Below, in pieces: positions 1 through 64,000 of a DNA stretch of 64,000 nucleotides. Made by a program: the position numbers and the translations under genes. Origin of the DNA: Pseudoxanthomonas sp. NC8 (GTDB lineage: Bacteria; Pseudomonadota; Gammaproteobacteria; Xanthomonadales; Xanthomonadaceae). The notes below the pieces were generated by a model. That model saw nothing but the letters and a program-made list of their open reading frames with translations. It ran no database searches and was not told the DNA's origin. Location: the NCBI GenBank assembly GCA_025232375.1, contig CP060419.1, positions 2,541,001 through 2,605,000 of the forward strand, written 5' to 3'. Position 1 is the first letter of the stretch. Every line of letters begins with the position of its first letter.

Positions 1-931
1 CGGAACCCGGCGGGCGATGCCCAGCATCACCAGCAGCACCGGCGCCACCGTGCACAGGGTGCCGTTGAGCAGCGACAGCACGTACACCTCGTGCGGCAGC
101 GCCAGCGCCGACAGCGGTCGCAGCAGCAGGAACTGGCCGATGCACAGCGCGCTGGCCACGCCGCTGGCATAGGCGGTCAGGCGGACCGCGCCGATCTTCG
201 CGACCATCTCGCCGCTGCCGGTCAGGTACAGGGCGTAGGCCAGCGCGCTGCCGAACACCAGCGCACCGCCGAGGACGATGCTGCGGTCGCCGGACTGCAG
301 GTCGTGGCCGAAGGCCAGGGCCACGCCGAGGTAGCTGACCAGTAGCGCGATCCACTGCGTGCGGCTGGGCCGGCGCCCGAACGCGGCCCAGCCGATCAGC
401 AGGACCAGGGTCGGGGTGAGGTAGAGGATCAGCCGCTCCAGCGTGGCGCTGATGTAGGCCAGCCCGGCGAAGTCCAGGAAGCTGGTAAGGTAGTAGCCGA
501 AGAAGCCCTGGGCCGAGGATCCGCCAGCGCTCGCCAGGCGTCAGCGGCCGCGGCGCGCGGCGCGCCGCCCACCCGCCCATCAGCAGGAACAGCGGCGAGG
601 CGACCAGCATCCGCAGCGCCAGCAGGGTCATCGCATCGGCGCCATGGCGGAAGCCGAGCTTGACGATGATCGCCTTGCCCGAGAACAGGATCGCGCCGCC
701 CGCGGCGAACAGCACGCCGGCGGCGCGGCGACGGCGTGCGTGTGCGGCTTCGCGTGCGGCCCCGTCGGCGCTGGCAGCGCACGCCCTGGCGGCGCTGGGC
801 GACGCCGGCGCGGCTTCGGCGCCGTCGACCGCGGCGGTTTCCGGATCCAGCGTCGCGGCGGCCATTTCGTTGGCCGCGTCGCCCTGGGCTTCCTTCCCCT
901 CTTCCAGAACTTCCCGAACGTCTCCAGTCAC
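1..931 (-). CDS. EamA/DMT-family transporter (C-terminus cut by window edge)
   Basis: Inner-membrane carrier of the drug/metabolite transporter superfamily; substrate unknown. An Ala/Glu-rich soluble N-terminus of about 60 residues precedes the first membrane segment (GVLFAAGGAILFSGKAII). The motif LERLILYLTPTLVLLIGWA, at the end of the first EamA repeat, and the start of the second repeat (GGALVFGSALAYALYLTGSG) follow. The reading leaves the window at base 1, so the last helices are missing. The start is taken as GTG at 931, whose GTGA overlaps the stop of hutG, implying translational coupling. One frame break near 509 (CCCAGGG where CCAGGG is expected). A Thr in YYLTSFLDF near 487 is probably Ala, a CCTTA/CCTGG artefact. 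Family assignment is firm; the N-terminal extension is unusual. Confidence 0.8.
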   Translation of the reverse strand, partial: MTGDVREVLEEGKEAQGDAANEMAAATLDPETAAVDGAEAAPASPSAARACAASADGAAREAAHARRRRAAGVLFAAGGAILFSGKAIIVKLGFRHGADAMTLLALRMLVASPLFLLMGGWAARRAPRPLTPGERWRILGPGLLRLLPYQLPGLRRAGLHQRHAGAADPLPHPDPGPADRLGRVRAPAQPHAVDRATGQLPRRGPGLRPRPAVRRPQHRPRRCAGVRQRAGLRPVPDRQRRDGREDRRGPPDRLCQRRGQRAVHRPVPAAATAVGAGAAARGVRAVAAQRHPVHGGAGAAGDAGHRPPGS

Positions 932-1704
932 GCCAGCGTAGCCTCCAGCAATGCGCGGATTACCCGCTGCAGCTTCTCCGCCTTGTCCGGCAGGTACTCG
1001 AAGCTGTCCTCGTCCATGTAGGCATGCTGGGCGATCTCCAGCTGCACCGCCTCCACCCCGATCTCCGGGTCGCCGTAGTGGCGGGTGATGTAGCCGCCCT
1101 TGAAGCGACCGTTGACCACGTGGCTGTACTCGGCCTGCGCGTCGAGCACGGCGGCCAGCCGCTGCTGCAGCGCCGGCGTGCAGCTGGTCCCGGCGGCGGT
1201 GCCCGGGTTCAGCACCGGCAGCGCACCCTCGAACAGGAACGGCAGCGTGCCGCGGATCGAATGGCCTTCCCACAGCACCACCCGGCCGTGCTCGCCGCGG
1301 ATGCGCTGCAGCTCGGCGTCGAGGGTGTCGTGGTACGGGCGCCAGTACGTGTCCACGCGCGCGGCGATCTCGGCCGCGTCCGGCTCCACGCCCGCGCGGT
1401 ACACCGGCTCGCCGCTGAACTGCACCACCGGGCACAGGCCGGTGGTGTTCTGCCCCGGATACAGCGAGGTGTCGTCCGGCGGCCGGTTGAGGTCGACCAC
1501 ATAGCGCGAATGGCGCGGCACCAGGATCGAAGCGCCCAGCTCGCGGGCGAAGGCGTACAGGCGGCTGACGTGCCAGTCGGTGTCGGGCACGCGGCGCGCG
1601 CGGTCGGTCAGGCGCGCGGCGATCGCATCGGGCACCGCGGTGCCGTCGTGCGGCAGGCTGACCAGCAGCGGCGCGGTACCGCGATGGAGCTCGTAGATGT
1701 CCAT
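928..1704 (-). CDS. hutG: N-formylglutamate deformylase (N-formylglutamate amidohydrolase family)
   Basis: Cytoplasmic metal-dependent hydrolase that releases formate from N-formyl-L-glutamate, the last step of the five-step histidine degradation route. It is 258 residues long, normal for HutG, and reads in one frame from ATG 1704. Family motifs are SLPHDGTAVP near the N-terminus, DTDWHVSRLY, ILVPRHSRYVVDLNRPPDD, and VLWEGHSIRGTLPFLFEG with the conserved Glu and His. Its stop overlaps the start of the EamA gene. The partners hutF and hutI lie about 44 kb away in this window rather than beside it. Relatives in the same fold act on other N-formyl amino acids, but the presence of hutF (the deiminase branch) supports the HutG call. 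Confidence 0.9.
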   Translation of the reverse strand: MDIYELHRGTAPLLVSLPHDGTAVPDAIAARLTDRARRVPDTDWHVSRLYAFARELGASILVPRHSRYVVDLNRPPDDTSLYPGQNTTGLCPVVQFSGEPVYRAGVEPDAAEIAARVDTYWRPYHDTLDAELQRIRGEHGRVVLWEGHSIRGTLPFLFEGALPVLNPGTAAGTSCTPALQQRLAAVLDAQAEYSHVVNGRFKGGYITRHYGDPEIGVEAVQLEIAQHAYMDEDSFEYLPDKAEKLQRVIRALLEATLA

Positions 1705-1736
1705 GCCGCGATTGTACGCCTGGCCCCTGTGCGCCT

Positions 1737-3118: not shown

Positions 3119-3140
3119 GCGGGATCTCCTGCGGTGCGGG

Positions 3141-4410
3141 CTACTGGAAGCGTTCGACGCGGTACGGCGCCGGGTCGATGGCCGGCTTGCGCCCGGTCAT
3201 CAGGTCGGCCACCAGCTGGCCGCTGGCGGTGCTCATGCTGATCCCGAGCATGCCGTGGCCGGCCGCCAACCAGACGTGAGGATGCTTCGGCGAACGGCCC
3301 AGCGCGGGCAGGTCGTCCCAGGTCATCGGCCGCCAGCCGTACCACTTCTCCTGGATCATGGACGCGTCCGGCGGCTGCTGCAGGTATTCGCGTGCGGCGC
3401 GTTCGAGCGCGGTAAGGCGCACTTCGTTGAGGGTGCTGTCGTGGCCGGAGAATTCCATGGTGCTGCCCAGGCGGAAACCGCTGCCCCAGGCGGTGATGCA
3501 GACCGAGCGGTCCTTCAGGACCAGTGGCCGCCGCGGCAGCCGGTCCAGCCGCGAATAGGTGATCGAGTAGCCCTTGCCCGGCTGGATCGGCAGGCGCAGG
3601 CCGAGCGGGCGGATGATCTGTGGCGTCCACGCCGCCATCGCCACGACCGCGTCGCGGCCACGGCGCTCGCCGCGCCCGCCCGCCTGTCCGGCGATGCGCA
3701 CGCGCACGCCGTCGGCGCCGGGCTCGATCGCTTCGACCCGGCAGCCCTCTTCGATCACGCCGCCGCGCTCGCGCACCGCGCGGGCCAGTTCGGCGACGTA
3801 GCGGTCCGGGCGCAGGTGGGCGTCATCGGGGAAGCGGATCGCGCCGACGATGCCGGGCTTGAGCGCCGGTTCCTGGCGCAGGTAGTCGGCGCCGTCGATG
3901 GTCTCGGTGGCGATCCCCATCGCGTTGAGCGGCGCGCACTCGGCGACGTAGTGCTCGAAGTTGCGGCGGTCGCGGAACACGTAGTCCAGGCCGGTCTCGC
4001 CGAATTCGCAGTCCAGGCCGTAGCGCCCGATCCACTGCACCAGCCGCGCGCGCGAATCGTCCAGCAGCGCGGCGCGGGCACGGGCGCTGGCCATCCAGTC
4101 GCGGCTGTTGCAGCGGGCGGTGAAGCGCGCCAGCCAGTGCCACAGCGCCGGGTCCACCCGTGGCTTGAGGTACAGCGGCGCGTCGGGGGTGAACATCCAC
4201 TTCAGCGCGCGCATCGGCACGCCGGGCGCGGCCAGCGGCGGTGCATGGCTGGGCGTGATCGTGCCGCAGTTGCCGTGCGAGGTGGCGCCGCCGACGGTGG
4301 CCGCCTCCAGGATGCGCACGCCGCGGCCGGCTTCGAGCAGGGACAGGGCGGTGGGTAAGGCCGATGGCGCCACCGCCGAGGATGAGGACGTCGTCACGGG
4401 AGGAATTCAC
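3141..4410 (-). CDS. FAD-dependent oxidoreductase, D-amino-acid dehydrogenase (DadA)-like
   Basis: DAO-superfamily flavoenzyme, likely oxidising a D-amino acid or an N-substituted amino acid and passing electrons to the quinone pool. About 420 residues from ATG 4410. Visible are the N-terminal dinucleotide-binding motif LILGGGAIGL, the DadA-type segment SHGNCGTITPSHA, the substrate-domain motif PIQPGKGYSITY, and the C-terminal FAD motif HVWLAAGHGMLGISMS. One frame break near 4350 (GGCCTTACCC where GGCCTGGCC is expected, again a CCTGG site). It lies 22 bases upstream of gor on the same strand. No racemase, hydroxyproline epimerase or aldehyde dehydrogenase is adjacent, so the substrate cannot be inferred. 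Confidence 0.78.
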
Positions 4411-4496
4411 CCGCCGAGTTTAACCGTCGCCGTGCATCGACCGGATGCCGCGCCGGTGCTACGCGAACCGTTGCAGCCGCATCCATCGCCGCCAAG

Positions 4497-4520: not shown

Positions 4521-4535
4521 CCGGCGCGCGGGAAC

Positions 4536-5012: not shown

Positions 5013-5756
5013 TCAGAAGCGGAAGCCGTAGCCCACCACGGGGCCGCTGAGGTCCAGGGTCACGTCGGCGTTGTCGTTGCCCAGCTTGCCTTCGAGATAG
5101 CGGTAGCCGAACAGCCAGGCGCCGTTGCCGGTGCGGTAGTTGCCCATCGCCGACGCGCTCCAGGTGCCGTCGGTCTCGCCCACAGAACCGTCGCCGCGCA
5201 GGACCAAGGCCCCAGCGCTCGTTGAGCGCCCAGGTGTAGCGGGCGCCCAGCAGCAGGTCGAGGTAGCGGGCGCCGGCGTCGAGGCTGCTGGGCGGCCGGG
5301 CCGGGTTGTTCGGCTCGAAACGCACGTTGAGGTCCAGGTCGATGTAGCGCACGCCGCCGAACAGGTCCAGGCCGCGGTCGCGCTCCCCGCTTGCCCATGG
5401 GAGAGCGCCGCGTCGAGCAGGCGTGCATCGATGTCGTTCTCGGTGCGCGCGAAGCGCCGTTCCGTGCTGTCCGACAGGCCCGGGTAGATGAAATCGGCGA
5501 AGGCGCCCCACTGCTCGTTGCGGCCTTCGACCCGCACCATGAACACACCGTCCAGCTCGGAGAAGGACGACTCGCTTTCGGCTTCGGTCGGCGGATCGAT
5601 GGTCCGCAGGTCGGTGCCGATGCTCGCCGCCCACAGGTAGGGCTCGGCCATCCAGTCCCAGTCGCCGGCCTCGCCGGCCGACGCCGCCGTGCCGGCGCCG
5701 AGTCCGGCCAGCAGGAATCCGGCGCGCATCGCATTGGGAAAGGTCGATCGGTACAT
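5013..5756 (-). CDS. Putative outer-membrane beta-barrel protein
   Basis: About 247 residues from ATG 5756 with an N-terminal signal sequence (hydrophobic AGFLLAGLGAGTAASA). The mature part alternates hydrophobic/aromatic residues as in an outer-membrane barrel: WDWMAEPYLWAASIGTDL, QWGAFADFIYPGL, LDLFGGVRYIDLDLNVRF, LDLLLGARYTWALNERW, WLFGYRYLEGKL, and a C-terminus GPVVGYGFRF ending in Phe, the classical Bam recognition residue. Two frame breaks, near 5385 and near 5207; the second is CCTTGG where CCTGG is expected. It resembles uncharacterised porin-like proteins of proteobacteria; no specific role can be given. Confidence 0.68.
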   Translation of the reverse strand: MYRSTFPNAMRAGFLLAGLGAGTAASAGEAGDWDWMAEPYLWAASIGTDLRTIDPPTEAESESSFSELDGVFMVRVEGRNEQWGAFADFIYPGLSDSTERRFARTENDIDARLLDAALSHGQAGSATAAWTCSAACATSTWTSTCVSSRTTRPGRPAASTPAPATSTCCWAPATPGRSTSAGALVLRGDGSVGETDGTWSASAMGNYRTGNGAWLFGYRYLEGKLGNDNADVTLDLSGPVVGYGFRF

Positions 5757-11422: not shown

Positions 11423-11526
11423 GGCACGCCCCGCGCCCCTTCCCTCCCTGTTCGCCGAAAGGCGGAGGAGAGGTTCAAGAGGGTGCTGTTGCTCTGCTTC
11501 GCCTTGCTCCCCACGCTCCACTCCAC

Positions 11527-11698
11527 CGAAGCCACGCCCCCAAAGCCGCCGGGGCCGTCGTGTCCTGGGGAGAGGGCGCAAGCGGCACATGGATGTGCCG
11601 CGGTCGCGAGTAAAGGCAGGAAGCCGTCCCGAGGGATGCGCCCTCTCCCCGGGACGCGGCGGCCCACCCCGAAGCCAGCGCCCTCAGGCGTGGCTTCG
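11527..11698. repeat. 172-bp nested inverted-repeat element between dnaE and accA
   Basis: The dnaE-accA gap (11423-11791) has no supportable gene but contains a large imperfect palindrome. Outer arms: CGAAGCCACGCC (11527-11538) against GGCGTGGCTTCG (11687-11698). Middle arms: 19 bases at 11562-11580 against 11637-11655, 18 of 19 pairing, core GGGGAGAGGGCGCA. Inner palindrome: GCGGCACAT-GG-ATGTGCCGC at 11582-11601. The RNA would fold into a long branched hairpin. It could be a REP/MITE-like intergenic repeat, or the dnaE transcript end; there is no T-tract for a simple terminator. Confidence 0.7.
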
Positions 11699-11791: not shown

Positions 11792-12750
11792 ATGAATCCG
11801 AACTACCTCGATTTCGAGCAGCCCATCGCCGACCTGGAAGCCAAGATCCAGGAATTGCGCAGCGCCAGCACCGGCCCGGCGGTCAACGTGGACGCCGAGG
11901 TGCGCGCGCTGCGGGACAAGCTGCGCAAGCGCACCGCCCAGATCTTCCGCGACCTCAGCCCCTGGCAGGTGTCGCAGATGGCCCGCCACCCCGCCCGGCC
12001 GTACACCTGGACTACGTGCGCGAGGTCTGCGACGAGTTCCAGGAACTGGCCGGCGATCGCGCCTTCGCCGACGACAAGGCCATTGTCGGCGGCCTTAGCC
12101 CGCATCGACGGCCGCCCGGTCGTGGTGATCGGCCACCAGAAGGGCCGCGACACCAAGGAAAAGATCCGCCGCAACTTCGGCATGCCCAAGCCAGAGGGCT
12201 ACCGCAAGGCGCTGCGCCTGATGAAGCTGGCCGAGCGCTTCGGCCTGCGATCCTGACCTTTATCGACACCCCGGGCGCCTGGCCGGGCATCGACGCCGAA
12301 GAGCGCGGCCAGTCCGAGGCCATCGCCCGCAACCTGCTGGAGATGGCCGAGCTGAAGGTGCCGATCGTCTGCACCGTGATCGGCGAAGGCGGCTCCGGCG
12401 GCGCGCTGGCCATCGGCGTCGGCGACAGCACGGTGATGCTCGAATACAGCACTTACTCGGTGATCTCGCCCGAAGGCTGCGCCTCGATCCTGTGGAAGGA
12501 CGCGGGCAAGGCCAAGGACGCCGCCGAGCAGCTGGGCCTGACCGCCCGCCGCCTGCGCGGCGGCTGGCTGGTCGACAAGGTCGTGCGCGAGCCGACCGGC
12601 GGCGCCCACCGCAACCCGCGGCAGATGGCCCGACGCCTGAAGGCCGTGCTGCTCAACGAACTCGACGCGCTGGTGGACCTGCCGGTCGAGGAACTGGTCC
12701 AGCGCCGCTACGCGCGCCTGCACGGCTATGGGGCGTACGAGGCCGCGTAA
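11792..12750 (+). CDS. accA: Acetyl-CoA carboxylase carboxyltransferase subunit alpha
   Basis: With AccD it transfers carboxyl from carboxybiotin-BCCP to acetyl-CoA, the committed step of fatty-acid synthesis. Start ATG 11792 gives [20 protein letters not shown], and the total of about 319 residues matches E. coli AccA. Visible blocks are the N-terminal coiled segment, [38 protein letters not shown] and [19 protein letters not shown] forming the acyl-CoA/oxyanion site, then [19 protein letters not shown]. Three frame breaks: near 12008 (a C missing from ACCCTGG), near 12101 (GGCCTTAGCCC for GGCCTGGCCC), and near 12250 (a C missing). dnaE followed by accA is a common order in Xanthomonadaceae. 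Confidence 0.97.
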
Positions 12751-17596: not shown

Positions 17597-18195
17597 ATGC
17601 GCGGACGCGACGAAGACACCGGCGAATTCCTTTCCCCCAGCCGCAGCCAGCAGCGCCGCGAAGCGCTGGAAGTGCTGGAGCTGGCCGAGAAGCTGGCCGC
17701 GCTGACCCCGACCCAGCTGGCGAAACTGCCGATCCCCGACGACCTGCTGCCGCACCTGGAGCAGACCCGGAAGATCACCGCGCACATCGCCCGCAAGCGC
17801 CAGCTGGCCTTATAGCCAAGCAGATGCGGCGCGAGGACGACGAGACCCTGGAGGCGATCCGCGACGCGCTGGACGAGGACGGCAAGGCCGCCCGCCGCGA
17901 GGTGGCCGCGATGCACCGGGTCGAGGACTGGCGCGAACGGCTGCTCGCCGAGGGCGACGCCGCGCTGGCCGAACTGCTGGAAGAGCATCCCGGCGCCGAC
18001 CGCCAGCACCTGCGCCAGCTGGTGCGCAACGCCAACGAGGAGAGGCTGCGCAACAAGCCGCCGCGTGCGTTCCGCGAACTGTTCCGCGAACTGCGCATGC
18101 TGCTGCTGGCCGGCAGGAACGACGGCACCGGGGCAGCGGACTTCGACGACGTGGAGTCCGGCGTGGACGACGGGGCCGAAGCGCGCGGGGACTGA
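17597..18195 (+). CDS. darP: Ribosome-associated protein DarP (YjgA, DUF615)
   Basis: Helical protein that assists late 50S subunit maturation. Start ATG 17597 gives [20 protein letters not shown], and the conserved segments are [35 protein letters not shown] and [17 protein letters not shown]. One frame break at 17811-17818: TTATAGCC where TTCCTGGCC is expected, which writes a false TAG stop inside the conserved LAKQMRRED helix. Corrected length is about 199 residues, a little longer than E. coli YjgA. An acidic tail ([12 protein letters not shown]) ends the protein. It sits between pmbA and tldD, a common neighbourhood. Confidence 0.93.
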
Positions 18196-18220: not shown

Positions 18221-19669
18221 TCACGTCCTCGTCCCGCCCACGGTCAGGCCGTCGATCAGCAGCGACGGCTGGCCCACGCCCACCGGTACGCTCTGCCCGT
18301 CCTTGCCGCACACGCCCACGCCTTCGTCGAGCGTAAGGTCGTGGCCGACCATGCGCACCTTCTGCATCGTCTCCGGGCCGTTGCCGATCAGGGTGGCGCC
18401 CTTCACCGGCGCGGTGACCTTGCCGTCCTCGATCAGGTAGGCCTCGGTCGCCGAGAACACGTACTTTCCGCTGGTGATGTCGACCTGGCCGCCGCCGAAA
18501 TTGACCGCGTACAGGCCCTTCTTCACCGAACGGATCATCTCCTCCGGGTCGTGCGTGCCGGCGCGCATGTAGGTGTTGGTCATCCGCGGCATCACCAGGT
18601 GCGCGAACGACTCGCGGCGGCCGTTGCCGGTCGGGGCCGTGCCCATCAGCCGCGCGTTGAGCGTGTCCTGCATGTAGCCGACCAGCACGCCGTCCTCGAT
18701 CAGCGTGGTGCAGCGCGTGGGCGTGCCCTCGTCGTCGATGTTGAGCGAGCCGCGGCGGCCCTCGAGCGTGCCGTCGTCGACGATGGTCACCCCGGCGCGG
18801 CCACGCGCTGGCCGATGCGGCCGGCGTAGGTCGAGGTGCCCTTGCGGTTGAAGTCGCCTTAAGGCCGTGGCCGACCGCCTCGTGCAGCAGCACGCCCGGC
18901 CAGCCGGCGCCCAGCACCACTGGCATCGTGCCGGCCGGCGCATCCACCGCGTCGAGGTTCACCAGCGCCTGGCGCAGCGCCTCGCGCGCCAGCTTCTCGG
19001 GCCGCCCGCCGGAGAACAGTTCCTCGTACGAATAGCGGCCGCCGCCGCCGGCGTAGCCGGATTCGCGGCGCCCGCCGTGCTCGACGATCACCTGCACGTT
19101 GAGCCGCACCAGCGGCCGCACGTCGGCGGCCATCACTCCGTCGCTGCGCGCCACCAGCACCGTATCCACGCCGCCGGACAGGCTTACCGACACCTGGTTC
19201 ACGCGCGGGTCGGCCGCGCGCAGCAGCCGGTCCAGCGAACGCAGCAGCTCGACCTTGTCCTCGTTGCCCATGCCGTCGACCGGATCCAGCGCCGGGTACA
19301 GCGCGTGGCCGCCGCTGCGCACCAGCTGCCGCGGCGCGTGCGCGCTGCCGTCGCGGGCGATCGCGCGCGCCGAACCGGCGGCCAGCCGCAACGCCTCGGC
19401 GTTGATGTCGTCGGAATAGGCGAAGCCGGTCTTCTCGCCGGAGATCGCACGCACGCCCACGCCCTGCTCGATCGAATGCGCGCCGTCCTTGACGATGCTG
19501 TCCTCCACCGTCCAGCTCTCGCGGCGCGAATGCTGGAAATACAGGTCGCCGAAGTCGATGCCCGGGCCGAGCAGCGCGCCGAAGGCGCGGTCCGACCGGA
19601 CGGATCGAGGCCGCCGGGCACGAGCAGGCGGGTTTCGGCGAGGGTCAGTGCGGAATCGGTCATCGTCAT
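18221..19669 (-). CDS. tldD: Metalloprotease TldD
   Basis: Zinc-bearing subunit of the TldD-TldE protease. The metal motif HEAVGHGL is intact near 18885; right after it the sequence reads CCTTAAGG where CCTGGAAGG (Leu-Glu-Gly) is expected, breaking the frame. Other conserved parts are [70 protein letters not shown] and the C-terminal [19 protein letters not shown] second break is near 19610 and a third near 18800. Start ATG 19669 or 19663; about 480 residues. It converges on darP, and its partner pmbA is 750 bases further on. Confidence 0.94.
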
Positions 19670-20573: not shown

Positions 20574-23500
20574 TCCATGCCGGCGTCGTGGCCGGTGGCG
20601 TCGCCGGCGTCGCGACGCGACTGCTCCCGGCTGATCACTTCCACCTTCGGCTCCTTCCACGGACCGGTGACCTTGTAGGTCTTCGCGCCCATTTCGCCGA
20701 TCGGCTTCGACAGCACGGCATTTGCGGCAGCACCCACCGCCGCGCCCACCGGGCCACCGGCCACCGCACCGACCACGGTCAGCAGGTTGCCCGACTTGGG
20801 CAGCACGTCGATGGTCTGGTCGAAGCGCTGCGCGCGCAGGTCGGTGTTGCCGCGGATGTGGATGTCGGCGGCCGGCCCGTCGATCAGCATGTCCCCGGTA
20901 TGGGCCTCGCCGTCGGCGAAGTCCACCCGGCCTTCGAGCCGGTCAAAGGCGAAACCCTTGGAAAAGAAGTCACGGAAGTCGAGCATCAGTCGGCGCGGCA
21001 GCTGGGCCAGGCTGAACAGTCCGAGCACGCGGCCGGCCCCGGATCCACTTCCAGCAGCTGGCCGTCACGGGCGGCGATGTGCAGGCTGCCCTGCAGCTCC
21101 GCCAGCCGGAAACCTGCGGGCGTGCCCGGCCAGCTGGCGTCGAAGCGCACTTCGCCTTCGCCACGCGCCAGCCAGTTGCGGTAACCGAGGCCGTCCATCA
21201 GCCGTCCCATGTTCTTGCTGTCGACCTGCAGCGCGATGTGCGTGCGCGCCGCGTCGCCGCGGCCGAGCCACTCGCCGGTCGCCTCGATCGCCTGCTCACC
21301 GGCCTGCACCTGCAGCCGCTCCACGCGCAGTCCGCCGGCGACCGGGCGGGTGCGCAGCGAGGCGCTGCCCAGCACGGCGTCGCGATAGCGCAGGTCGTCC
21401 ACGTCGACCACCAGCGGCGGGATCGCGGCAGGATCGAAACCGGCATCGGCCTTAGCGACCGGTGCGCCGGCCCCGTTCCTTAGCGCCCGCGAGCGATCGC
21501 TCCGCATCCGCCACGGCCGTTGCGTCGTTTTCCGGCTGCGCGGCGGCGGCGGCCGGCGGCGGTTGCCAGTGCAGCCGCGTGAAACGGCCCTGCACCGCCG
21601 CACCCTTCGCCTCCGGCACGGTGAGGCTGCCGGCCAGCCCCGGGCCATCCACCGCCACTTCCAGCGCCTGCGTACCGGGCCGCAGCTTCAGCCGCGTCGC
21701 CGGGAACGCGCCGCCGAGCAGGCGCAGCTCGTCGGCCAGCACGTCGACCTCGCGCAAGGGCACGCCATCGCCGCCCCCTTGGCCATGCCGATCCATTCCA
21801 GCGCATCGAACGAACGGGTGTGGCCACCGACCACCATGCCGCTCGCCGGCGGCTCGGCCGCCACGGTCGCGCTGCCCAGGTCACCCGCACGCCGGTGTTG
21901 CCGCCGCGCTGGCGCGCGCGGATCGCCACGCGCTCGCCGAACACCACGTCCACCGGTCCGCTGCCCAGCGGCATTCCAAGCTGCACGGTGGCGGGCAAGG
22001 TCTCGTCCGCCGGCTTGGCCAGCGGCGCGGGCAGGCTCAGCGTGGTCCCGGCCAGCGACGAACGCAGGCGCAGCGTGCCCACGCTGTCGCCCGCAGGCTG
22101 CCTGGACAGCGACATCGCCAGCGACCACGGCGAACGGCCGTGTATGTACGGCCGCAGCCAGTCCAGTTCCGGTGCGCGCGCCAGCAGCTCGGAGGCGTCC
22201 ATCGGCGCATCCAGGCCGGCTTCGAACGCGTTGCCGGCGTCGTCCACGTGGCGCCCCGAGCGCAGCGCGAGCACGCCATCCTGGCCGCCATAGCGCACCG
22301 CCAGTGCCGGCGCCGCGAAGCCGCTGCCGTCGTAGTGCGCCTCGCCGCGCGTGGCCTCGAACACCAGGTTCCAGCGCTTCTCGGTAAGGCGCACGCCATC
22401 GAGCATGACCCGGCCATCGATCACCGCCGGGGCCGCGCTGCCCAGCGGCAGGTGGGGCGAAGGTGGTGGCCGCCGGTCCGCCGGCGTCCAGGTTGGTAAG
22501 GGTCTCGCGGTTCTCCCTGGCCAGCGGGCTGCGCCGCAACAGGTCGAGCATGCGCGCCGCATCACCCTTCGCCTCGGCGCGCACCAGCAACGGCGCATGG
22601 CTGAAATCGGCGATGCCGGCCTGCACGCGCTGGACGCCAAGGCCGGCGACGCGGCCTTGGCCCAGCACGCTGAAGCCATTGCCGACGAAGGCCACGCCGG
22701 CCTGCATCGCCTCCAGTTCCGGCCAGTCCTTCCGGAAGCGGATGCGTCCGTCGCGGATGCTGGCGGTGGCCTCGAAACGCCCGTTGTCGTCCACGAACGG
22801 CCAGTCGTCCAGGTCGCCGGCGACCAGTCCGCGCGCGCCGGCCACCGTGCCGCCCTGCAGCGCCATGTCGAGCCAGTCGATGGCCGCCTTCGGCATCTTG
22901 TGGTGGATCCAGAACTTCCTGGCGACCGGCACCCGGGCATCGTCGATGTCCGCGGCGATCCCGATCCATGGCCGCGTGCCGTCGCCCGGAACCAGAGTCC
23001 GCCGCGCACGTGCGCGCCATAGTCGCCGCCATCCAGGCGCAGCGCCGGCGTGGACACTTCCCAGCCGTCGCCCTCGCGCTAAGGCCATGACCTTAGCCGT
23101 CGAGTTTCAGCTCGTGGACCACGCCGAAGCCGCTGGGCCAGTCGAAGCGCAAAGCGCTGTGCGGATCCAGCGCCAGCTGCCAGCCCTGGCCATCGCCTTC
23201 GAACGCGCCGGCGGGGCCGTCGATCCCGGGCGCATCGCCGACGGCGGCGAAAGCCACCCGCTCCAGGCGGCCGCGCATGCGCATCGTCCCGCCGCGCACG
23301 CCGGCCACTTCCAGCCCCGACAGTTCCGCCCCCGGCGCGGCCCGGGTGATCCAGCCGCGCAGCGCCGGGGAAAGGCCCTCGCCCAGCGCGGCGATCGCCA
23401 GCAGCGGCCGCGCATCGACGCGATCGACCCGCAGCGCGAAGCGCGCACCGCCGGCGGCCACCAGGCCGTCGAGCGTCTGCGCGCCGCGCTGGTCGGCGAT

Positions 23501-24468: not shown

Positions 24469-25958
24469 TCAGAGCAGGACCACATCGAACTGCTCCTGCA
24501 GGTACTGCTCGTCCGCCTGGAAGCGGATGCTCTTGCCGAGGAACTCCTCCAGCTCGGCCACTGCCACCGACTCCTCCTCGGTGATCCGCGCCACCACCTT
24601 GGCCGAGGCGATCACCAGCAGGCGCGCGGCATCGAACTGGCGCACCGCGCGGGTGATCTCGCGGAAGATCTCGTAGGTCACCGTCTCGGCGGTCTTCACC
24701 GAACCGCGCCCGCTGCATTGCGGGCAGGTTTCCGACAGCTGCCGCTCCAGGCTCTCGACCGTGCGCTTGCGGGTCATCTCGATAAGGCCCAGCGGCGAGA
24801 AGTCGTAGACCGTGGTCTTGGCGTGGTCGCGCGCCAGCGACTTCTCCAGCGTGCGCAGCACCTGGCGGCGGTGCTCCGGATCGATCATGTCGATGAAGTC
24901 GATGATGATGATCCCGCCCAGGTTGCGCAGGCGCAGCTGGCGGGCCACCGCCTGCGCGGCCTCCAGGGTTGGTACGGTACACCGTCTCCTCGAGGTTGCG
25001 CTGGCCGAGGAACGAACCGGTGTTGACGTCGATGGTGGTCATCGCCTCGGTCTGGTCGATGACCAGGTAGCCACCCGACTTCAGCGGCACCTGCTTGTCC
25101 AGCGCGCGACCGATCTCGTCCTCCACCCCGTACAGGTCGAAGATCGGGCGGTCGCCGGAGTACAGCTCGATCTTCTCGGCCAGTACCGGCATGTACTTGG
25201 CGACGAAGGCCTGCAGCCGGTCGTACGTGTCGCGCGAATCCACCCGCACCTTCTCCACGTCGCGGCGGATCAGGTCGCGCACCGCGCGCAGCGGCAGGCT
25301 CAGGTCCTCGTAGATGATCGTGCCGGCGCCGGCATCGCGGCCGCGGCGCTCGACCACGTTCCAGACCCGCGACAGGTAGGCGACGTCCTCGGCCAGCGCC
25401 TCGGCCGGCTGGCCTTCGGCGTTGGTGCGGACGATGTAGCCGTGGCCGCCGTGGCTGGTCGACAGTTCCGATACCAGCGTCTTCAGGCGCAGGCGCTCGG
25501 CCTCGTCCTCGATCCGCGCCGACACGCCGATGCTGCGCGACTGCGGCAGCAGCACCAGGTAGCGCGAGGGAATGCTGATCTGCGTGGTCAGGCGCGCGCC
25601 CTTGGTGCCGATCGGGTCCTTGACCACCTGGACCACGATCTCCCTGGCCGTCGCGCAGCAGCTCGACGATCGACGGGGTCGGCGTCGGCTGCGACGGCGC
25701 GTCCTCGGCCTTGGCCGGCGTCCACCGGTGCCGTGCGGACCACGTCGTTGGCGTGCAGGAAAGCGGCCCGTTCCAGCCCCAGCTCCACGAACGCGGCCTG
25801 CATGCCCGGCATCACCGCTGCACGCGCCCCTTGTAGATGTTGCCGACCACCCCGCGCCGCCAGCCGCGCTCGATGTGCAGCTCCTGCAGCATGCCGTTCT
25901 CGACGACGGCCACGCGGGTTTCGCGCGGGGTTACGTTGACCAGGATCTCTTCGGACAT
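24469..25958 (-). CDS. rng: Ribonuclease G
   Basis: Endoribonuclease of the RNase E/G family maturing the 16S rRNA 5' end and decaying mRNAs. About 496 residues from ATG 25958, the normal size. The N-terminus shows MSEEILVNVTPRETRVAVVE and the S1-like GWRRGVVGNIYKGRVQRV. The catalytic region has YLVIDQTEAMTTIDVNTGSF and GGIIIIDFIDMID with the Asp residues binding magnesium, and the zinc-link motif CPQCSGRGSVKTAETV. Frame breaks near 25820, 25710, 25640 (CCAGGGAG for CCAGGAG) and 24966 (CCCTGG for CCTGG). It begins 8 bases after the maf stop; maf-rng-yhdP is one operon. Confidence 0.94.
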
Positions 25959-32672: not shown

Positions 32673-33731
32673 TCAGCGACCGCTGCCGGCGAACAGGCCC
32701 GCGCCCTTGAGCAGGTGCGTCGCCGGTGCCTCGGCGATCGCCAGCAGCAGCCGTTCAAGGAGCTGCCGGGGATCGCCCGGCCCGCGCCCCTTGGCCGCGC
32801 GGTCGACGCGCGAGGCGTAGGCGGCGAACCGGTTCCAGCGCTGCGGCGTGGCATGGCGCTGCAGCGCGCGCTTGAACGGCGCCCTGGCGCGACTCCCACA
32901 GCCCCTGCGATTTCATCTCGGCCGCCAGATTGGCGCCGCGCGCCTGCGCGCGTGCCAGCGCGGCCGCGCGCAGCACCTCGCGGATCACCATCGGCATCAG
33001 CCCGGCCACCTGCTCGCCTTCGGCGCGCAGCCCGGCGAGCATGCGCCGCGCCTGCGCCGCCTGCCCCGACAGCGTCGCCTCGATCAGGCGGAACACGTCA
33101 TAGCGCGCGGCATCGGCGACCAGCGATTGCATCGTCGCCAGGTCCAGCGTGCCTTCCGGCGCCAGCAGCGCAAGCTTGTCGATCTCCTGCGCGGCGGCCA
33201 GCAGGTTGCCTTCGACCCGCTCGGCCAGCCCCTGCACCGCGTCCGGCGTCGCGCGCAGGCCGCGCTCGCGCAGGCGGCGGTCGATCCAGCCCGGCAGCTC
33301 GTGCGGCTTGAGCGCCCAGGCGATCGAGACCACGCCGCGGCGCGAGATCGCGTCCACCCACTTGCCGTGGTGCGCCTTGCTCCAGTCGCCGGCGACGATC
33401 ATCAGGGTGACGTCGCCGGGCGGGTTCTCGCAGAATTCGCTGATCACCTCGGCACCAGTCTTGCCCGGCTTGCCACCGGGCAGGCGCAGTTCGATCAGGC
33501 GCCGGCTGCTGAACAGGCTCGGCGCATTGAAACTGGCCGCCAGGCCGTCCCAGTCCGGATCGCGGCCTTCGCCATCGAACACTTCGCGCTCGGCGCCCTC
33601 GGCGGCGCGCGCGCGCGCACCGCATCGGCGGCCTCGAGCACGTGCAGCGTCTCCGTTCCGGCCACCAGGTAGGCGGCCTGCAGCGGCTGGTTGCCGACCT
33701 GCGCGGCCAGCTGGTCGGGCCGCAGCTCCAT
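32673..33731 (-). CDS. holA: DNA polymerase III delta subunit
   Basis: Clamp-loader subunit that opens the sliding clamp. About 352 residues from ATG 33731. N-terminus [20 protein letters not shown] and YLVAGTETLHVLEAADAVRA; then LFSSRRLIELRLPGGKPGKT, VTLMIVAGDWSKAHHGKWVD, RVEGNLLAAAQEIDKLALLA and the C-terminal collar helices ending LLKGAGLFAGSGR. Frame breaks near 33612 and 32890 (CCAGGGCG for CCAGGCG). The start codon overlaps the lptE stop by one base, so they are translationally coupled. Confidence 0.95.
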
Positions 33732-34690: not shown

Positions 34691-37407
<2,717 letters not shown>

Positions 37408-51720: not shown

Positions 51721-52936
51721 ACGCGTCCCGCACCGCCGGCGGCACCGGTATGGTCGTGGCCGCGGCGGCCATGCTGATGCTGACCATGGGCGCGCGCCAG
51801 ACCACCGGCCTGTTCGTCGCTCCCATCCACCTGGACACCGGCGTGGGCATCGCCACCATCAGCCCTGGCGCTGGCAATCGGCCAGTTCGTCTGGGGCGCG
51901 GTCCAGCCGGTGTTCGGCGCCATTGCCGACCGGCACGGACCCGAACCGGTGCTGGTGGCCGGCGGCCTGCTGCTGACCGCTGGCCTTGGCGCTGGTGCCG
52001 TTCCTGCCGACGGGTCCGGGACTGATGCTGACCTGGGCATGCTGACCGCCGCCGGCGCCGGTGCCGGCAGCTTCTCGATCCTGATCGGCGCCACCGCCGG
52101 CCGCTTGCCCGCGGAGCGGCGCTCGTTCGCCGCCGGCTTCATCAACGCCGGCGGTTCGCTCGGCCAGTTCGTGTTCGCACCGCTGCTGCAGCTGGTGATC
52201 GGCGCCGCCGGCTGGACCGCGGCGATGCTCGGGATGGCGGCGACCTCGCTGCTGACCCTGCCGCTGGCCCGCGTGTTCCGCCGTCGACCCGGCTAAGGCC
52301 GCCGTGGTGCACGAAGGCACCGAGGACCGCGGCCTGCGCCACCAGCTCGGCATCGCCCTGCGCGACCGCAGCTACTGGCTGCTGCACCTGGGCTTCTTCA
52401 CCTGCGGCGTGCACGTGGCCTTATGGTCACCCACCTGCCGGGCGAAGTGGCGCTGTGCGGGCTGCCGGCCAGCGTCTCGGCGGTGTCGATCGCGCTGATC
52501 GGGCTGTTCAACATCGCCGGCAGCCTGCTGGCGGGCAAGCTCGGCGAGCGCTTCCGCATGAAGTGGATCCTCGCGCTGATGTACGCCAGCCGCGCGCTGC
52601 TGATCGCGCTGTTCCTGCTCGCACCGAAGACCGCGCTGACGTTCTACCTGTTCGCCGCCGGCCTCGGCTTCACCTGGCTGGCGACCGTGCCGCCCACCGC
52701 CGGCCTTGGTCGGCAAGCTGTTCGGCCCGCGCTACCTCGGCACGCTGTTCGGACTGACCCTGTTCTCGCACCAGGTCGGCGGCTTCTTCGGCGCCTGGCT
52801 GGGCGGCATCGCGCTGGAACGCTCGGGCAGCTACGACTGGATGTGGTACGCGGACATGGCGCTGGCCACGGTCGCCGCGCTGGCCCACGTGCCGGTGCGC
52901 GAGAAAGCGGTCGCCACGGCTCCTGCCGCGGCCTGA
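51717..52936 (+). CDS. Major facilitator superfamily transporter
   Basis: About 406 residues from ATG 51717, 12 predicted helices. Segments: GMVVAAAAMLMLTMGARQTT, FGAIADRHGPEPVLVAGGLL (motif-A-like loop), GAGSFSILIGATAGRLPAER, LGQFVFAPLLQLVIGAAGWT, SVSAVSIALIGLFNIAGSLL, AGKLGERFRMKWILALMYAS, TFYLFAAGLGFTWLATVPPT and LFGPRYLGTLFGLTLFSHQV. Resembles oxalate/monocarboxylate-type MFS antiporters, so both efflux and uptake are possible. Five or six frame breaks (near 51868, 51985, 52020, 52285, 52423, 52706), the last CCTTGG for CCTGG. Controlled by the adjacent MarR protein. Confidence 0.92.
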
Positions 52937-53927: not shown

Positions 53928-55332
53928 TCAGGCCGTCGCCACCTTGGTGAGCGCCGCATCGATGCGTTTCAAGGCCTGCTCGCGCCCGGCCAGATGGACC
54001 GTGTGGGAGATGTCCGGGCTGACCTGGGTACCGGTGATCGCCACGCGCAGCGGCTGGGCGACCTTGCCGATGCCGAGGTCCAGCGCCGCGGCCGCGTCGT
54101 GCAGCGCGGCCGACACGCCCTCGACGGTCCATGCCGGCAGCGCTGCCAGCAGCTCGCGCGACTTGGCCAGCGGCGCCCGGGCGTCGGCCTTCAGGTGCTT
54201 GGCCACCGCGGCCTCGTCGTAGTTCTCCAGCGGCAGGTAGAACACCGCCGCCTTCTCGGCCATTTCCTTCAGCGTGTGAACGCGCTCGCGCAGCGCCACC
54301 ACCACGTCCGCCGGCGCCGGGCCCGCGGCGACATCCGCGCCCAGCTTTTCCAGCTGGAAGACCAGGTGCGGCGCGACCTTCGCCGGGTCGTCGGTCTTCA
54401 TGTAGTGCTGGTTGATCCAGCCCAGCTTGGCCATGTCCAGCCGCGCGGGCTTGGAGTTGCAGTCGCTCAGGTCGAACAGGTCGATCAGCTCCTGCCGGCT
54501 GAAGATCTCCTGGTCGCCATGCGACCAGCCCAGCCGCGCTAAGGTAGTTGAGCAGCGCATGCGGCAGGTAGCCCATGTGCTTGTACTGCATCACGTCGGC
54601 GGCGCCATGGCGCTTGGACAGCTTGGCGCCTTCCTCGTTGAGGATCATCGGCATGTGGCCGAACCTCGGCAGCGGCGCGCCGAGCGCCTTGTAGATGTTG
54701 ATCTGGCGGGGTGTGTTGTTGACGTGGTCGTCGCCGCGGATCACCTCGGTGATCTTCATGTCCCAGTCGTCGATCACCACGGCGAAGTTGTAGGTGGCCC
54801 AGCCGTCCGGACGGAAGATCACGAAGTCGTCCAGCTCGGCGTTGGCGATCTCGATCCGGCCCTTGATCAGGTCGTCGAGCACCACCACGCCGTCGAGCGG
54901 ATTCTTGAAGCGGATGACGCGGTTGGGATCGTCGCGGTACGGCAGGTTGAGGTCGCGCGCGGCGCCGTTGTAGCGCGGCTTCTCCTTGTTCGCCAGCGCC
55001 GTCTCGCGCATGGCTTCCAGTTCCTCGCGCGTCTCGTAGGCGTAGTAGGCCGTGCCATCGGCGACCATCTGTTCGGCGACTTCGCGGTAGCGGTCCAGGC
55101 GCTGGGTCTGGTAGATCGGGCCCTCGTCGTAGTCCAGCTCCATCCAGTCCATCGCCTCGAGGATGGCGTCGATCGCGCCTGGGTGCTGCGCTCGCGGTCG
55201 GTGTCCTCGATGCGCAGGACGAACGTGCCGCCCCTGGTGGCGCGCCTGCAGCCAGCTGTACAGCGCGGTGCGCGCGCCACCGATGTGGAGGTAACCGGTG
55301 GGGCTGGGAGCAAATCGGCTTCGGCACGTCAT
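53928..55332 (-). CDS. gltX: Glutamyl-tRNA synthetase
   Basis: Class I synthetase, about 467 residues from ATG 55332. HIGH-type motif in [35 protein letters not shown] (after correction); [45 protein letters not shown]-type loop [21 protein letters not shown]-terminal anticodon-binding part ends [15 protein letters not shown]. Frame breaks near 55240 (CCAGGGGC for CCAGGGC), 55180 and 54543 (CCTTAG for CCTGG). Upstream of zur on the same strand. Confidence 0.96.
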
Positions 55333-55430: not shown

Positions 55431-56172
55431 ATGACCACCCTGCTCGTTTCCGACCTGCACCTGGACCCGGCCCGCCCCGCGGTCACCGCGCTGTTCCTGC
55501 GTTTCCTGCGCGAGGAGGCCGCCGTTGCCGATGCCCTGTACATCCTCGGCGACCTGTTCGAATCCCTGGGTCGGTGACGACGATCCGTCGCAGGCCGGTG
55601 CCGAGGTCGCGACCGGCCTGCGCGCACTGGCCGACGCCGGGGTGCCGGCGTACTTCATGCACGGCAACCGCGACTTCCTTGGTCGGTGCGGATTTCGCTG
55701 CGCGCTGTGGCATGCGCGTGCTGCCGGACCCGGCCGTGGTGTCGTTCTACGGCGAGCCGGTACTGTTGATGCACGGCGACCTGCTGTGCAGCGATGACAC
55801 CGCCTACCAGGGCGTTCCGCGCGCAGACCCGCGCCCCGGAATGGCAGCGGCGGTTCCTCGCCCAGCCGCTGTCCGCCCGGCTCGCCTTCGCCGAACAGGC
55901 GCGCTAAGGCCAGCATGGCCCGGCAGCGCGAGATGATCGACGGCGACCGCGCCACCTTCGAGTCGGTCACCGACGTGACCCCCGCCGCCGTGGAGGCCAC
56001 CTTGGCCCGCCACGGCATCGCCACGCTGATCCATGGCCACACCCACCGGCCGGCGATCCACGCGCTGCAGGTGGGCGACCGCGCCTGCCGGCGGGTCGTG
56101 CTGGGCGACTGGTTCGAGCAGGGTTCGGTCCTGCGGGTGGACCGCGACGGCATGGCGCTGAGCGCGCTCTGA
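55431..56172 (+). CDS. lpxH: UDP-2,3-diacylglucosamine diphosphatase
   Basis: Lipid A pathway enzyme cleaving UDP-2,3-diacylglucosamine to lipid X and UMP. About 247 residues from ATG 55431. Calcineurin-fold manganese ligands are all present: [43 protein letters not shown], and [14 protein letters not shown]. Frame breaks at 55569 (CCCTGGG for CCTGGG), 55680 (CCTTGG for CCTGG), about 55815, and 55903 (CGCTAAGG for CGCCAGG, which writes a false stop). Divergent from gltX with 98 bases between. Confidence 0.95.
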
Positions 56173-57034: not shown

Positions 57035-58507
57035 TCAGGAGGCGCGACGCCTGCGCTTGGCTTCGTCCGAACGCATCTGCTGGATGCGTTCGAAGTAGCC
57101 CGGTTCGATGCCGGTGACGTAGTCGCCGTCGAAGCACGAGGAATCGAAGCGCTCCAGGTCCGGATTGCCCTCGCGCACCGCCGCCTCCAGGTCTTCCAGG
57201 TCATGGTAGATCAGCCAGTCGCAACCCAGCTCCTTCTCGATCTCCTCGATGCTGCGCCCGTGCGCGATCAGCTCGTCGGCCGAGGGCATGTCGATGCCGT
57301 AGATGTTCGGATGGCGCACCGGCGGCGCGGCGCTGGTAAGGTAGACCTTGCGCGCGCCGGCATCGCGCGCCATCTGCACGATCTGCTGGCTGGTGGTGCC
57401 GCGCACGATCGAGTCGTCGACCAGCAGCACCACCCGGTTGCGGAATTCCAGGTGGATCGGGTTGAGCTTGCGCCGCACCGATTTCACCCGCTCGCCTGGC
57501 CCGGCATGATGAACGTGCGGCCGACGTAGCGGTTCTTGATGAAGCCTTCGCGGTACTTCACCCCGAGCACGTTGGAGATCTCCAGCGCGGCGTCGCGCGA
57601 GGTGTCCGGGATCGGGATGATCGTGTCGATGTCATGGTCGGGGCGCAGGCGCAGGATCTTCTCGCCCAGCTTCACGCCCATGCGCATGCGCGCCTTGTGC
57701 ACCGAGACATTGTCGATCATCGAATCGGGGCGGGCGAAATACACGTACTCGAAGATGCACGGCGCCTGCTGGGCCGGCTCGGCCACCACCTCGCTGAACA
57801 GTTCGCCGCGCGCGGTGATGACCAGCGCTTCGCCGGGTTGCACGTCGCGCACGCGCGCGAAGCCGAGGATGTCCAGCACCGCCGACTCGGACGCCACCAC
57901 GTACTCGGTGCCTTCGTTGTGCTCGCGCTTGCCCAGCACCAGCGGGCGGATGCCGTGCGGATCGCGGAACGCGACTAAGGCCTGCGAGCCCAGCACCACG
58001 CTGACCACCGCATAGCCGCCCCTCACCCGCCGGTGAACGCCGGCCACGGCGCGGATCGCCGCCTCCGGCGACAGCGTGCGCTGGGTGTCCAGCTCGTGCG
58101 CGAACACGTTCAGCAGCACTTCGCTGTCCGAACCGGTGTTGATGTTGCGCCGGTCCTGGGCGAAGACCTGCTCGCGCAGGGCCTCGGTGTTGATCAGGTT
58201 GCCGTTGTGCGACAGGGCGATGCCGTACGGCGAATTGACGTAGAACGGCTGCGCTTCGTCCATGCCTTCCGAGCCGGCGGTCGGATAGCGGCAATGGGCG
58301 ATGCCGACCCGTCCTTCCAGCACGCTCATCGCCTTGGGACCGAACACGTCGCGGACGAGGCCGTTGTCCTTGTGCACGCGCAGGCGCGTGCCGTCGGCGG
58401 TGGCGATGCCTGCCGCGTCCTTGGCCGCGATGCTGGAGGACGGTCAGCCCGTCATAGAGCTGACCGGCAACGTTCTGGTTGCCGACGATTCCGACGATGC
58501 CGCACAT
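57035..58507 (-). CDS. purF: Amidophosphoribosyltransferase
   Basis: First step of purine synthesis: PRPP plus glutamine to phosphoribosylamine. About 490 residues from ATG 58507. Catalytic Cys2 in [43 protein letters not shown] domain end [24 protein letters not shown] loop [40 protein letters not shown]. Frame breaks near 58436 (CCAAGG for CCAGG) and 57496 (CCAGGC for CCAGGGC). cvpA lies 24 bases upstream, the classical cvpA-purF pair. Confidence 0.97.
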
Positions 58508-59182: not shown

Positions 59183-59216
59183 CCGGCGCACCGCCTCCGT
59201 GCGTCGTCGCCATGCT

Positions 59217-60259: not shown

Positions 60260-60323
60260 TCGGCTCGCAAAGGACGCGGCGGGAATGGCCGCGATTATAG
60301 GCCGCGATCACGCGGTAAGGCCG

Positions 60324-61587: not shown

Positions 61588-61620
61588 GCAGACCTCGATG
61601 GCCGCACGAGCGGCCCTCCA

Positions 61621-62264
61621 TCACAACGCGCGGTGCTTGGCCTCGCCGAAGAACGGGGTGTGGTGGGCACAGTCGTTCAGGCGCACCACCTCCCAGGCTC
61701 TCGACATCCGGGCCTTCGAGCAGGTTCAGCGTGGTCGGTGCCTGACGGAAGGTCCACAGCTTGCCGATCGGCAGGCCGAGGATCCGGCACAGCAGCACGC
61801 GGTTGACCGCGTCGTGCGCGACCACCAGCAGGGTGTCGTCGTCGCCCAGGCCTTCGCTGGCCCGGACCAGCCCGCGCCACGAACGATCCAGCACCTGGCG
61901 CAGCGATTCGCCGCCGGGCATCAGCACCGTGTCCGGTTCCTCGCGTAAGGCGCGCAGGCGGGCCGGATCCTTCTCGCCGATCTCGCTGGCCAGCAGGCCC
62001 TCCCATTCGCCGTGGGCGATCTCCGGATCTCCGGATCCAGCTGCAGCATCGGCGTGCGCGCCTCGCCCAGCGCCAGCTCGGCGGTGCGGCGCGCGCGCGA
62101 CAGCGGCGAGGCCACCGCGCGGGTGATCGCCACCTCGCGCAGGCGCTCGCCCAGTGCGCGCGCCTGCGACTCGCCCACCGGCGAAAGCGGAATGTCGATC
62201 TGGCCTGGTAGCGGCCTTCGGCGTTCCACGGCGTTTCACCGTGACGGGCAAGCAGGATGCGCAT
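61621..62264 (-). CDS. Histidine phosphatase family protein (phosphoglycerate-mutase-like)
   Basis: About 214 residues from ATG 62264. RHG motif MRILLARHGETPWNAEGRYQ; then IDIPLSPVGESQARALGERL, VASPLSRARRTAELALGEA, PEIAHGEWEGLLASEIGEKD, GESLRQVLDRSWRGLVRASE and the second His in DTLLVVAHDAVNRVLLCRIL. Frame breaks near 62210 (CCAGGCC for CCAGGGCC), 62033 and 61702. True stop 61621-61623 after GEAKHRAL. Substrate unknown (GpmB, CobC-like and others share the fold); no cobalamin genes nearby. A hairpin with a T-run precedes its start. Confidence 0.9.
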
Positions 62265-62274
62265 GGTGTCCCCA

Positions 62275-62306
62275 ATAAGAAAAAGCCCGCGCCGGCACGA
62301 CGCGGG
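62275..62306 (-). terminator. Terminator-like hairpin directly upstream of the histidine phosphatase start
   Basis: On the minus strand CCCGCG-N9-CGCGGG (62306-62286) is followed by GGCTTTTTCTTATT and then GGGGACACC-ATG. An intrinsic terminator this close to a start codon could be an attenuator, or the end of a leader transcript. Confidence 0.55.
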
Positions 62307-62382
62307 GGTGCGAATCATACCCCGCCCGGCGACCCGACCGGGCCTCACTGGGCGGTCCGTTTGTGGTAGCACCGGAAACGAA

Positions 62383-62411
62383 AAAGGCGCCGGCACGGGG
62401 CCGGCGCCTTT
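62383..62411 (-). terminator. Rho-independent terminator of the S46 peptidase gene
   Basis: Perfect 12-bp stem AAAGGCGCCGGC / GCCGGCGCCTTT with a 5-base loop. On the minus strand it is followed by TTCGTTTCC after a run of five Ts, 18 bases past the peptidase stop. Confidence 0.9.
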
Positions 62412-62428
62412 CCGGGCTGCCCGCGCGG

Positions 62429-64000
62429 TCAGCGCGCCGGGGCGACGTTCAGTTCCCGCAGCAGCTGCGGCGCCGGGGCGACCTCCTGCATGATCCAGCG
62501 CAGGTAGCGCTGGTCGACCGAGATCATCCGCGTCATCGACGGATCGAACACCCAGTTCGACGCCACCGACTCCCAGTTGCCGTCGAAGGTAAGGCCAACC
62601 AGGCGGCCGTGCGCATCGAGCACCGGCGAACCGGAGTTGCCGCCGGTGATGTCCAGGTCGGAAAGGAAGTTCACCGGCACCGAGCCCAGGCGCCCGTCGG
62701 TAAGGCCGCCATGGCGCCTTGGCCGCCACCGCATCCAGCAGCGCCTTGGGCGAATCGAACGGTTCGGCGCCGGTCTGCTTGGCGACCACGCCCTCCAGCG
62801 TGGTGAACGGGGTGTACTTCACGCCGTCGCGCGGCACGTAGCCGGTGACGTTGCCGAAGGTGATGCGCAGCGACAGGTTGGCGTCGGGATACACGAACTC
62901 GCCCCTGGCTCTTCTTGTAGTCGGCCAGCGCCTGCAGGAACAGCGGCCGTGCCGCCGGGTTCTCGCCGGCGCGGGTCTTGCGCTCCTCCTCGAGGCTGAG
63001 CAGCGTGGGCATCACCGCCACCGCATACTGGATCGCCGGATCGGTACTGGCCTCGAACGCGGTGCGATCGGCGGCGAACCACTTCAGGCGCTCCGCGGTA
63101 CTGCCCAGCCGGGTCCCGGCCAGCCGATCGAGCGCACGCCCGACCGCCGCCGCGTCGTTGCCACCCAGCCACTGGTCGACTGCCGCCACGCGCTGGCCAG
63201 TCGGCAGCTTGAGGTATTCGTTGAGCCAGTACTCCTGCAGCTGCCGGTCCATCGCCGCCACGTAGCGGCGTTCGAGCTGCTTCAGGCCGCCTTCGATCGC
63301 CGGCAGGTCGCGCTCCTGGTAGCCGGATTCGCGCTCGGCGTTGGGCTTGCCGCGCTCGATCGACAGGCGATAGAGCTGGGTGGCCGCACCGACGGTAGCG
63401 GTGTTGTTGAACATCGCCAGGGTCAGGTCGCGCTCGCGCGTGGCCCGGGCCTGCTCGAGCAGCGCGATGAGCCTGCCATGCGCAGCCAGCGCGTCGGCAC
63501 CCTTGGCGCCCTGCCCCTTCAGTAAGGCCAGCACCTCGGCTTCCTCGGCGTGCTTCTGCCCGGCCGCGTCGATGCGCTTGAAGCCTTCCAGCTGGCCTTC
63601 GTAGTTCTTGCCGGTGTTGTTCCAGCTGGCCATCGTCGCGGCATACCGCACCTGGATGTCCGGATCCTTCTTGCCCGCTGCTTCAACCAGCGCGATCTGG
63701 TTCCTGTAGTGGCGCGCGACGGTCGGGTAGGTCCACTGCGCGGTGTTGTCGAACTCGGCCGCCAGCGCATAGCGGTTGGTCGAGCCGGGATAGCCGGCGA
63801 CCATCACGAAATCGCCCTCGCCCAACGGCTTGTCGGCGATCTTCAGCCAGCGCTTGGGCCTGAACGGCACGTTGTCCGGGGAATACGCCGCCGGCTTGCC
63901 GTCCTTGCCGACATAGGCGCGGTAGAACGAGAAGTCGCCGGTGTGGCGCGGCCACATCCAGTTGTCGACATCGCCGCCGAACTTGCCCACGCTGTAAGGC
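62429..64000 (-). CDS. S46 family dipeptidyl-peptidase (DPP7-like); N-terminus beyond the window
   Basis: Periplasmic or surface serine peptidase removing N-terminal dipeptides; about 520 of roughly 700 residues are in view, the His of the triad being outside. Near the right edge is VGKFGGDVDNWMWPRHTGDF with the triad Asp region, then SFYRAYVGKDGKP. Helical domain: YAATMASWNNTGKNYEGQLE, GGLKQLERRYVAAMDRQLQE. The catalytic Ser is in FLSDLDITGGNSGSPVLDAH, followed by GLTFDGNWESVASNW. The Gly in FDGN corresponds to the S1 position that is Gly in DPP7 (aliphatic/aromatic P1) and Arg in DPP11 (acidic P1). Frame breaks near 62908 (CCAGGGGC for CCAGGGC) and 62716 (CCAAGG for CCAGG). Typical of Xanthomonadaceae. 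Confidence 0.92.

Follow-up and report, generated by a model that had tools for sequence, protein, structure and literature searches.

Gene breaks recur along the window analysed here, a stretch of 64,000 nucleotides from Pseudoxanthomonas sp. NC8 (positions 2,541,001-2,605,000 of its single 3,541,173-base contig, genome G000). Very probably, most of these breaks are not real. They are best explained as nanopore consensus errors at C(5mC)WGG, that is, at CCWGG sites bearing 5-methylcytosine (5mC), in an unpolished assembly. An earlier note, made from the letters of the window, had proposed Dcm-like methylation and an unpolished nanopore assembly, and this proposal is supported. Errors fall at CCWGG and not at CCSGG, a C5-methyltransferase locus lies on the same contig, a relative with an orthologous cassette is free of the pattern, and a characteristic base change is biased to the deposited strand. 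From these observations we infer the platform and the 5mC.

The sequence fingerprint was evident from 5-mer counts. These were compared with a Markov model and with four same-genus relatives (G002, G005, G006, and G012; about 260 kb of reference sequence). TAAGG and its reverse complement CCTTA occurred 56 times in the window, while the Markov model expects 25.9 and the relatives predict 6. CCWGG occurred 316 times, as against 402 expected from the model and 501 predicted by the relatives. The TAAGG excess and CCWGG corruption that the earlier note had described across the window are thus real. Twenty stretches of the same contig, 400 kb in all, were sampled as well. Relative to the four relatives, CCAGG/CCTGG was the most depleted 5-mer of this sample by z-score (1790 vs 3131; ratio 0.57), and the strongest enrichment was that of TAAGG/CCTTA (337 vs 38; ratio 8.4). 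In neither window nor sample, then, is the frequency of TAAGG equalled by the relatives. Within the sample, TAAGG stood at 2.08 times and CCWGG at 0.75 times the Markov expectation. All 20 stretches, spread along the contig, contained between 10 and 24 TAAGG/CCTTA sites, so the effect extends beyond the window. The frequency of CCCGG matched that of the relatives. Two further k-mers had been named for counting: CCTTGG/CCAAGG was a little raised (0.41/kb vs 0.30-0.38 in relatives), and CCCTGG was depleted together with CCWGG.

To delineate insertions and deletions (indels), the window was aligned to seven relatives; G012 and G005 aligned with it only partly (14.1 and 25.3 kb). An indel of 1-2 bases was called when it was supported by three or more relatives and by no fewer than 75% of those covering the site. 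Only alignments longer than 250 bases and above 70% identity were kept; sites with fewer than three covering relatives were dropped, as were motifs or indels agreed by less than 75%. This procedure yielded 78 consensus indels in 57.3 kb of window (1.36/kb). Applied to two control genomes, it returned 4 in G002 (54.9 kb; 0.07/kb) and 1 in G008 (56.3 kb; 0.02/kb). At 37 of the 78 indels, at least half of the relatives had CCWGG, a tenfold enrichment over the background of 4.7% of positions (binomial p 2e-28). At 57 of the 78, CCWGG was present in at least one relative, compared with a background of 324 of 2222 (15%); the criteria are not of quite equal width. The statement that most frame breaks fall on CCWGG therefore holds under the one-relative criterion and fails under the half-of-relatives criterion.

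Sites conserved among the relatives gave the same picture. The window had 224 conserved CCWGG sites, of which 28 carried an indel, 65 were substituted, and 131 were intact, in agreement with the earlier view that the error is partial and some sites are spared. The controls had indels at 1 of 259 (G002) and 2 of 258 (G008) conserved CCWGG sites, and none of the 72 conserved CCSGG sites in the window had one. These data bear on the possibility of generic long-read errors, from homopolymers or low coverage, in which methylation plays no part. In favour of such errors, 21 of the 78 indels touch no CCWGG in any relative. Runs of at least four equal bases were weakly enriched at these indels (6 of 21 vs 231 of 2243; p 0.02), while enrichment of runs of at least three was not significant (14 of 21 vs 1077 of 2243; p 0.12). 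Against this computed background, the view that the remaining indels stem mainly from homopolymers was not upheld. CCWGG itself lacks runs of three, the similarly composed CCSGG is spared, and the enrichment at CCWGG is tenfold. We regard generic errors as a very improbable explanation for the whole.

Substitutions at CCWGG were specific in kind and in strand. CCAGG had become TAAGG 16 times and CCTGG had become CCTTA once (15 and 1 if stretches that changed in length are counted separately). From the other direction, 47 TAAGG sites were covered by relatives. At least half of the relatives had CCAGG at 28 of these and CCTGG at none; a minority had CCWGG at 7. Of 2447 random places, 156 had CCWGG in half or more of the relatives. 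Summed over the window, the 400-kb sample, and the stretch around the cassette described below, the deposited strand held TAAGG and CCTTA in a ratio of 325:84, and TAAGG exceeded CCTTA in all 20 stretches of the sample. The ratio was 116:36 in the first ten stretches, where GC skew is positive throughout, and 209:48 in the other twelve, ten of which have negative GC skew. Relatives had 8:11 (five summed) and, in a larger sample of G006, 16:28. A mutational process would be expected to act symmetrically, or to follow replication or transcription. Because the bias follows contig orientation in both halves of the contig, it points to the consensus step and not to mutation. These results suggest that the CCAGG-to-TAAGG change is a consensus artefact.

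The same data speak to whether the deposited bases could be real, through massive pseudogene formation or through hypermutation at methylated CCWGG (deamination of 5mC with ineffective Vsr repair). In keeping with this, the vsr reading frame beside the methyltransferase is broken in the assembly. Deamination should give CTWGG or CCWAG by single C-to-T changes. CCAAG/CTTGG was not raised (0.79/kb vs 0.73-0.86 in relatives), and CTAGG/CCTAG hardly so (0.07/kb vs 0.02-0.06). The changes actually present were CCAGG to TAAGG and one-base indels, with the deposited-strand bias in both contig halves. Moreover, broken core genes, accA, leuS, and gltX among them, would hardly be tolerable for a living cell. 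It is hard to credit that the bases are real.

Consensus errors at methylated CCWGG call for a methyltransferase, and the earlier note had suggested a genome search for one of Dcm type. A profile search with PF00145 detected a single C5-methyltransferase locus, on the same contig (C1:2,517,855-2,519,093) and in three open pieces. It lies within a cassette about 21 kb upstream of the window, flanked by a Vsr-like endonuclease and a nuclease matching PF15515 (E 1.9e-62; 211.7 bits vs a curated cut-off of 25). The nuclease resembled R.MvaI (E 2e-5) more closely than R.BcnI (E 0.04). MvaI cleaves CCWGG, and BcnI cleaves CCSGG. The methyltransferases of the MvaI and BcnI restriction-modification systems are N4-cytosine enzymes; here, a nuclease of the same family is paired instead with a C5-methyltransferase and Vsr.

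All three genes of the cassette were interrupted. Breaks were classified by tblastn against G006, as DNA alignment (71% and 64% identity) was too gap-uncertain. The methyltransferase had two frame changes, each adjoining CCTGG (4218-4222 and 4866-4870 of L112, the contig stretch holding the cassette). Vsr had one frame change, at CCTTGG (L112 3516-3521), and the nuclease had an in-frame stop, the TAA inside a TAAGG (L112 5542-5546). It seems that most of the damage to the assembled cassette stems from the very mark that it would write. Separately, an open frame on the minus strand downstream of the nuclease (L112:6299-6712) partly resembles the start of Vsr by eye, possibly a second, truncated vsr.

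PF15515 was present in 3 of the 17 same-genus genomes searched, the strain's own included. One of these, G006, carries an uninterrupted cassette at the syntenic place (L149), with a methyltransferase 67-87% identical in pieces and a nuclease 55-58% identical. Over 212 kb of G006, TAAGG/CCTTA occurred 44 times (1.06 of the Markov expectation), and CCWGG stood at 0.97. Possession of the cassette alone thus does not produce the pattern, and this same-genus genome, with a like cassette and normal sequence, serves as a natural control. It also bears on the idea that CCWGG depletion reflects restriction avoidance and that the indels are unrelated sequencing errors. A cassette of a CCWGG-cutting family does seem present, as this idea would have it. 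However, G006 shows no such avoidance beside its orthologous cassette, and avoidance can neither place 37 of 78 indels at CCWGG nor make TAAGG from CCAGG. We give restriction avoidance very little credence.

Taken as consensus errors at methylated CCWGG, the pattern probably arose as follows. A single-contig, long-read assembly would have gone without correction by short reads or by a methylation-aware model. The inner C of CCWGG is most likely the target of the C5-methyltransferase in the Vsr / C5-methyltransferase / MvaI-BcnI-type nuclease cassette. The basecaller would then have misread the altered pore signal at methylated sites, and differently for each strand. At a share of sites, the consensus step presumably fixed the wrong call: a single base was inserted or deleted, or CCAGG was turned into TAAGG, with a preference for places where the deposited strand carries CCAGG. 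A minority of the indels is unrelated to CCWGG, and a few of these may be homopolymer errors. We lean slightly towards a further reading, in which the deposited sequence can be read as a methylome: the strand-biased fingerprint (CCWGG loss, TAAGG gain) would reveal an active CCWGG C5-methyltransferase, namely the Vsr-linked enzyme of an MvaI/BcnI-type cassette, unlike the N4-methylating MvaI and BcnI systems.

Several points weigh against consensus errors at methylated CCWGG as the explanation. Beyond the 21 indels that touch no CCWGG and the 131 conserved CCWGG sites left intact, indels were found at 5 of 57 conserved GGSCC sites, a count from which overlapping CCWGG was not separated. No relative had CCWGG at 12 of the 47 covered TAAGG sites, and one nuclease frame change has no adjoining CCWGG (L112 about 5269-5323). 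The homopolymer part of the nanopore profile shows only weakly here. The explanation does not yet account for the 4:1 strand bias, platform and methylation are read from the assembly alone, and the predicted CCWGG specificity of the cassette draws on family resemblance. Finally, no nanopore-only positive control was found when Escherichia coli was searched. There, a K-12 dnaE-accA query matched 5374 of 5426 genomes, and no broken assembly appeared among 60 listed of these matches, spread over the ranking (59 covered the query as one unbroken match and one covered only 10%). Nor was a family-wide replicate found: among 35 listed of 297 genomes, the sole single contig of low completeness was the strain's own.

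This kind of artefact is already known. In the available excerpts of Wick et al. 2019, about 70% of consensus errors from default nanopore models fell in Dcm motifs, followed by homopolymers, and errors at CCAGG/CCTGG are said to arise where the basecaller model lacks the modification (PMC6591954). The errors described here are likewise concentrated at CCAGG/CCTGG. They differ from that published case in lying outside the Enterobacteriaceae, in being deduced from an assembly alone, and in showing homopolymer errors weakly. Neither the CCAGG-to-TAAGG change nor the 4:1 strand bias was met in the excerpts of PMC6591954; our literature search was not aimed at TAAGG, and we do not claim that the TAAGG change is unpublished. 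According to the excerpted text of a nanopore typing study on R10.4.1 data from other species, forward reads conflict with reverse reads at methylated motifs, so that the consensus turns on slight changes in read frequency (PMC11389150). By analogy, R9.4 MinION chromosomes from sludge, one of them g__Pseudoxanthomonas_A, had uncorrected completeness of 41.9-93.0% in the portion available of PMC7966762.

Gene breaks in this genome should accordingly not be taken as pseudogenes. Its estimated completeness was 57%, compared with 99-100% in 14 of the 16 other same-genus genomes, and this low value is probably in large part an effect of the errors. More generally, systematic assembly errors can betray a methylation motif, and hence a candidate methyltransferase, without raw signal.

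We also examined 15 positions that the earlier note had cited as frame breaks: 12101, 17811, 23080, 23093 (for 23096), 24966, 25640, 32890, 36420, 52706, 54543, 55569, 55680, 55903, 57496, and 58436. At fourteen of these, the net length differed from that of every relative covering the site. In 13 of the 14, CCWGG lay within 8 bases in at least one relative; at 23093, it lay within 14. The claim did not hold at 58436, where length was unchanged against 4 of 5 relatives. The nearest consensus indel was at 58421, at a CCWGG. Coordinates are collected in Table 1.

Table 1. Features of the window and the candidate cassette. Coordinates refer to the window unless a stretch or contig is named; gene names at frame breaks are labels from the earlier note.
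Feature	Coordinates	Observation
Whole window	1..64000	CCWGG depleted, TAAGG/CCTTA enriched, 78 consensus 1-2-base indels
Frame break, accA	12090..12105	CCTTA here; CCWGG in 6/6 relatives
Frame break, darP	17803..17820	CCTTA here; CCWGG in 6/7 relatives
Overlapping CCTTA and TAAGG in one stretch	18857..18864	k-mer positions
Net length change, yhdP	23076..23100	Against 6/6 relatives; TAAGG at 23080, CCTTA at 23091
Frame break, rng	24958..24974	CCWGG in 2/6 relatives
Frame break, rng	25632..25648	CCWGG in 5/6 relatives
Frame break, holA	32880..32898	CCWGG in 3/5 relatives
Frame break, leuS	36412..36428	CCWGG in 4/5 relatives
Length change, MFS	52698..52714	Sole covering relative has CCWGG
Frame break, gltX	54535..54551	TAAGG at 54540; CCWGG in 4/5 relatives
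Frame break, lpxH	55560..55577	CCWGG in 5/5 relatives
Frame break, lpxH	55672..55688	CCWGG in 4/5 relatives
Frame break, lpxH	55897..55911	TAAGG at 55905; CCWGG in 2/5 relatives
Frame break, purF	57488..57504	CCWGG in 2/5 relatives
Consensus indel nearest 58436 (purF as cited)	58415..58428	5/5 relatives agree, each with CCWGG
Vsr-like endonuclease + C5-methyltransferase + MvaI/BcnI-family nuclease cassette	L112:3299-6360 = G000:C1:2517298-2520359	All interrupted

Other features of the contig were observed along the way. CTTAAG and TTAGG were also in excess in the 400-kb sample. TTAGG/CCTAA sites lay mostly in one stretch, L124 (36 of 54; G000:C1:2025001-2045000), which has a lower GC content (0.65) and is perhaps a mobile element. 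Tandem Repeats Finder gave one short array there, with a unit other than TTAGG. In the window, about 150 bases within 11515-11692 matched many other same-genus places at roughly 70-84% identity, which gives this stretch the look of a dispersed repeat. Among the matches listed, one further match was in the strain's own genome, at 73%.

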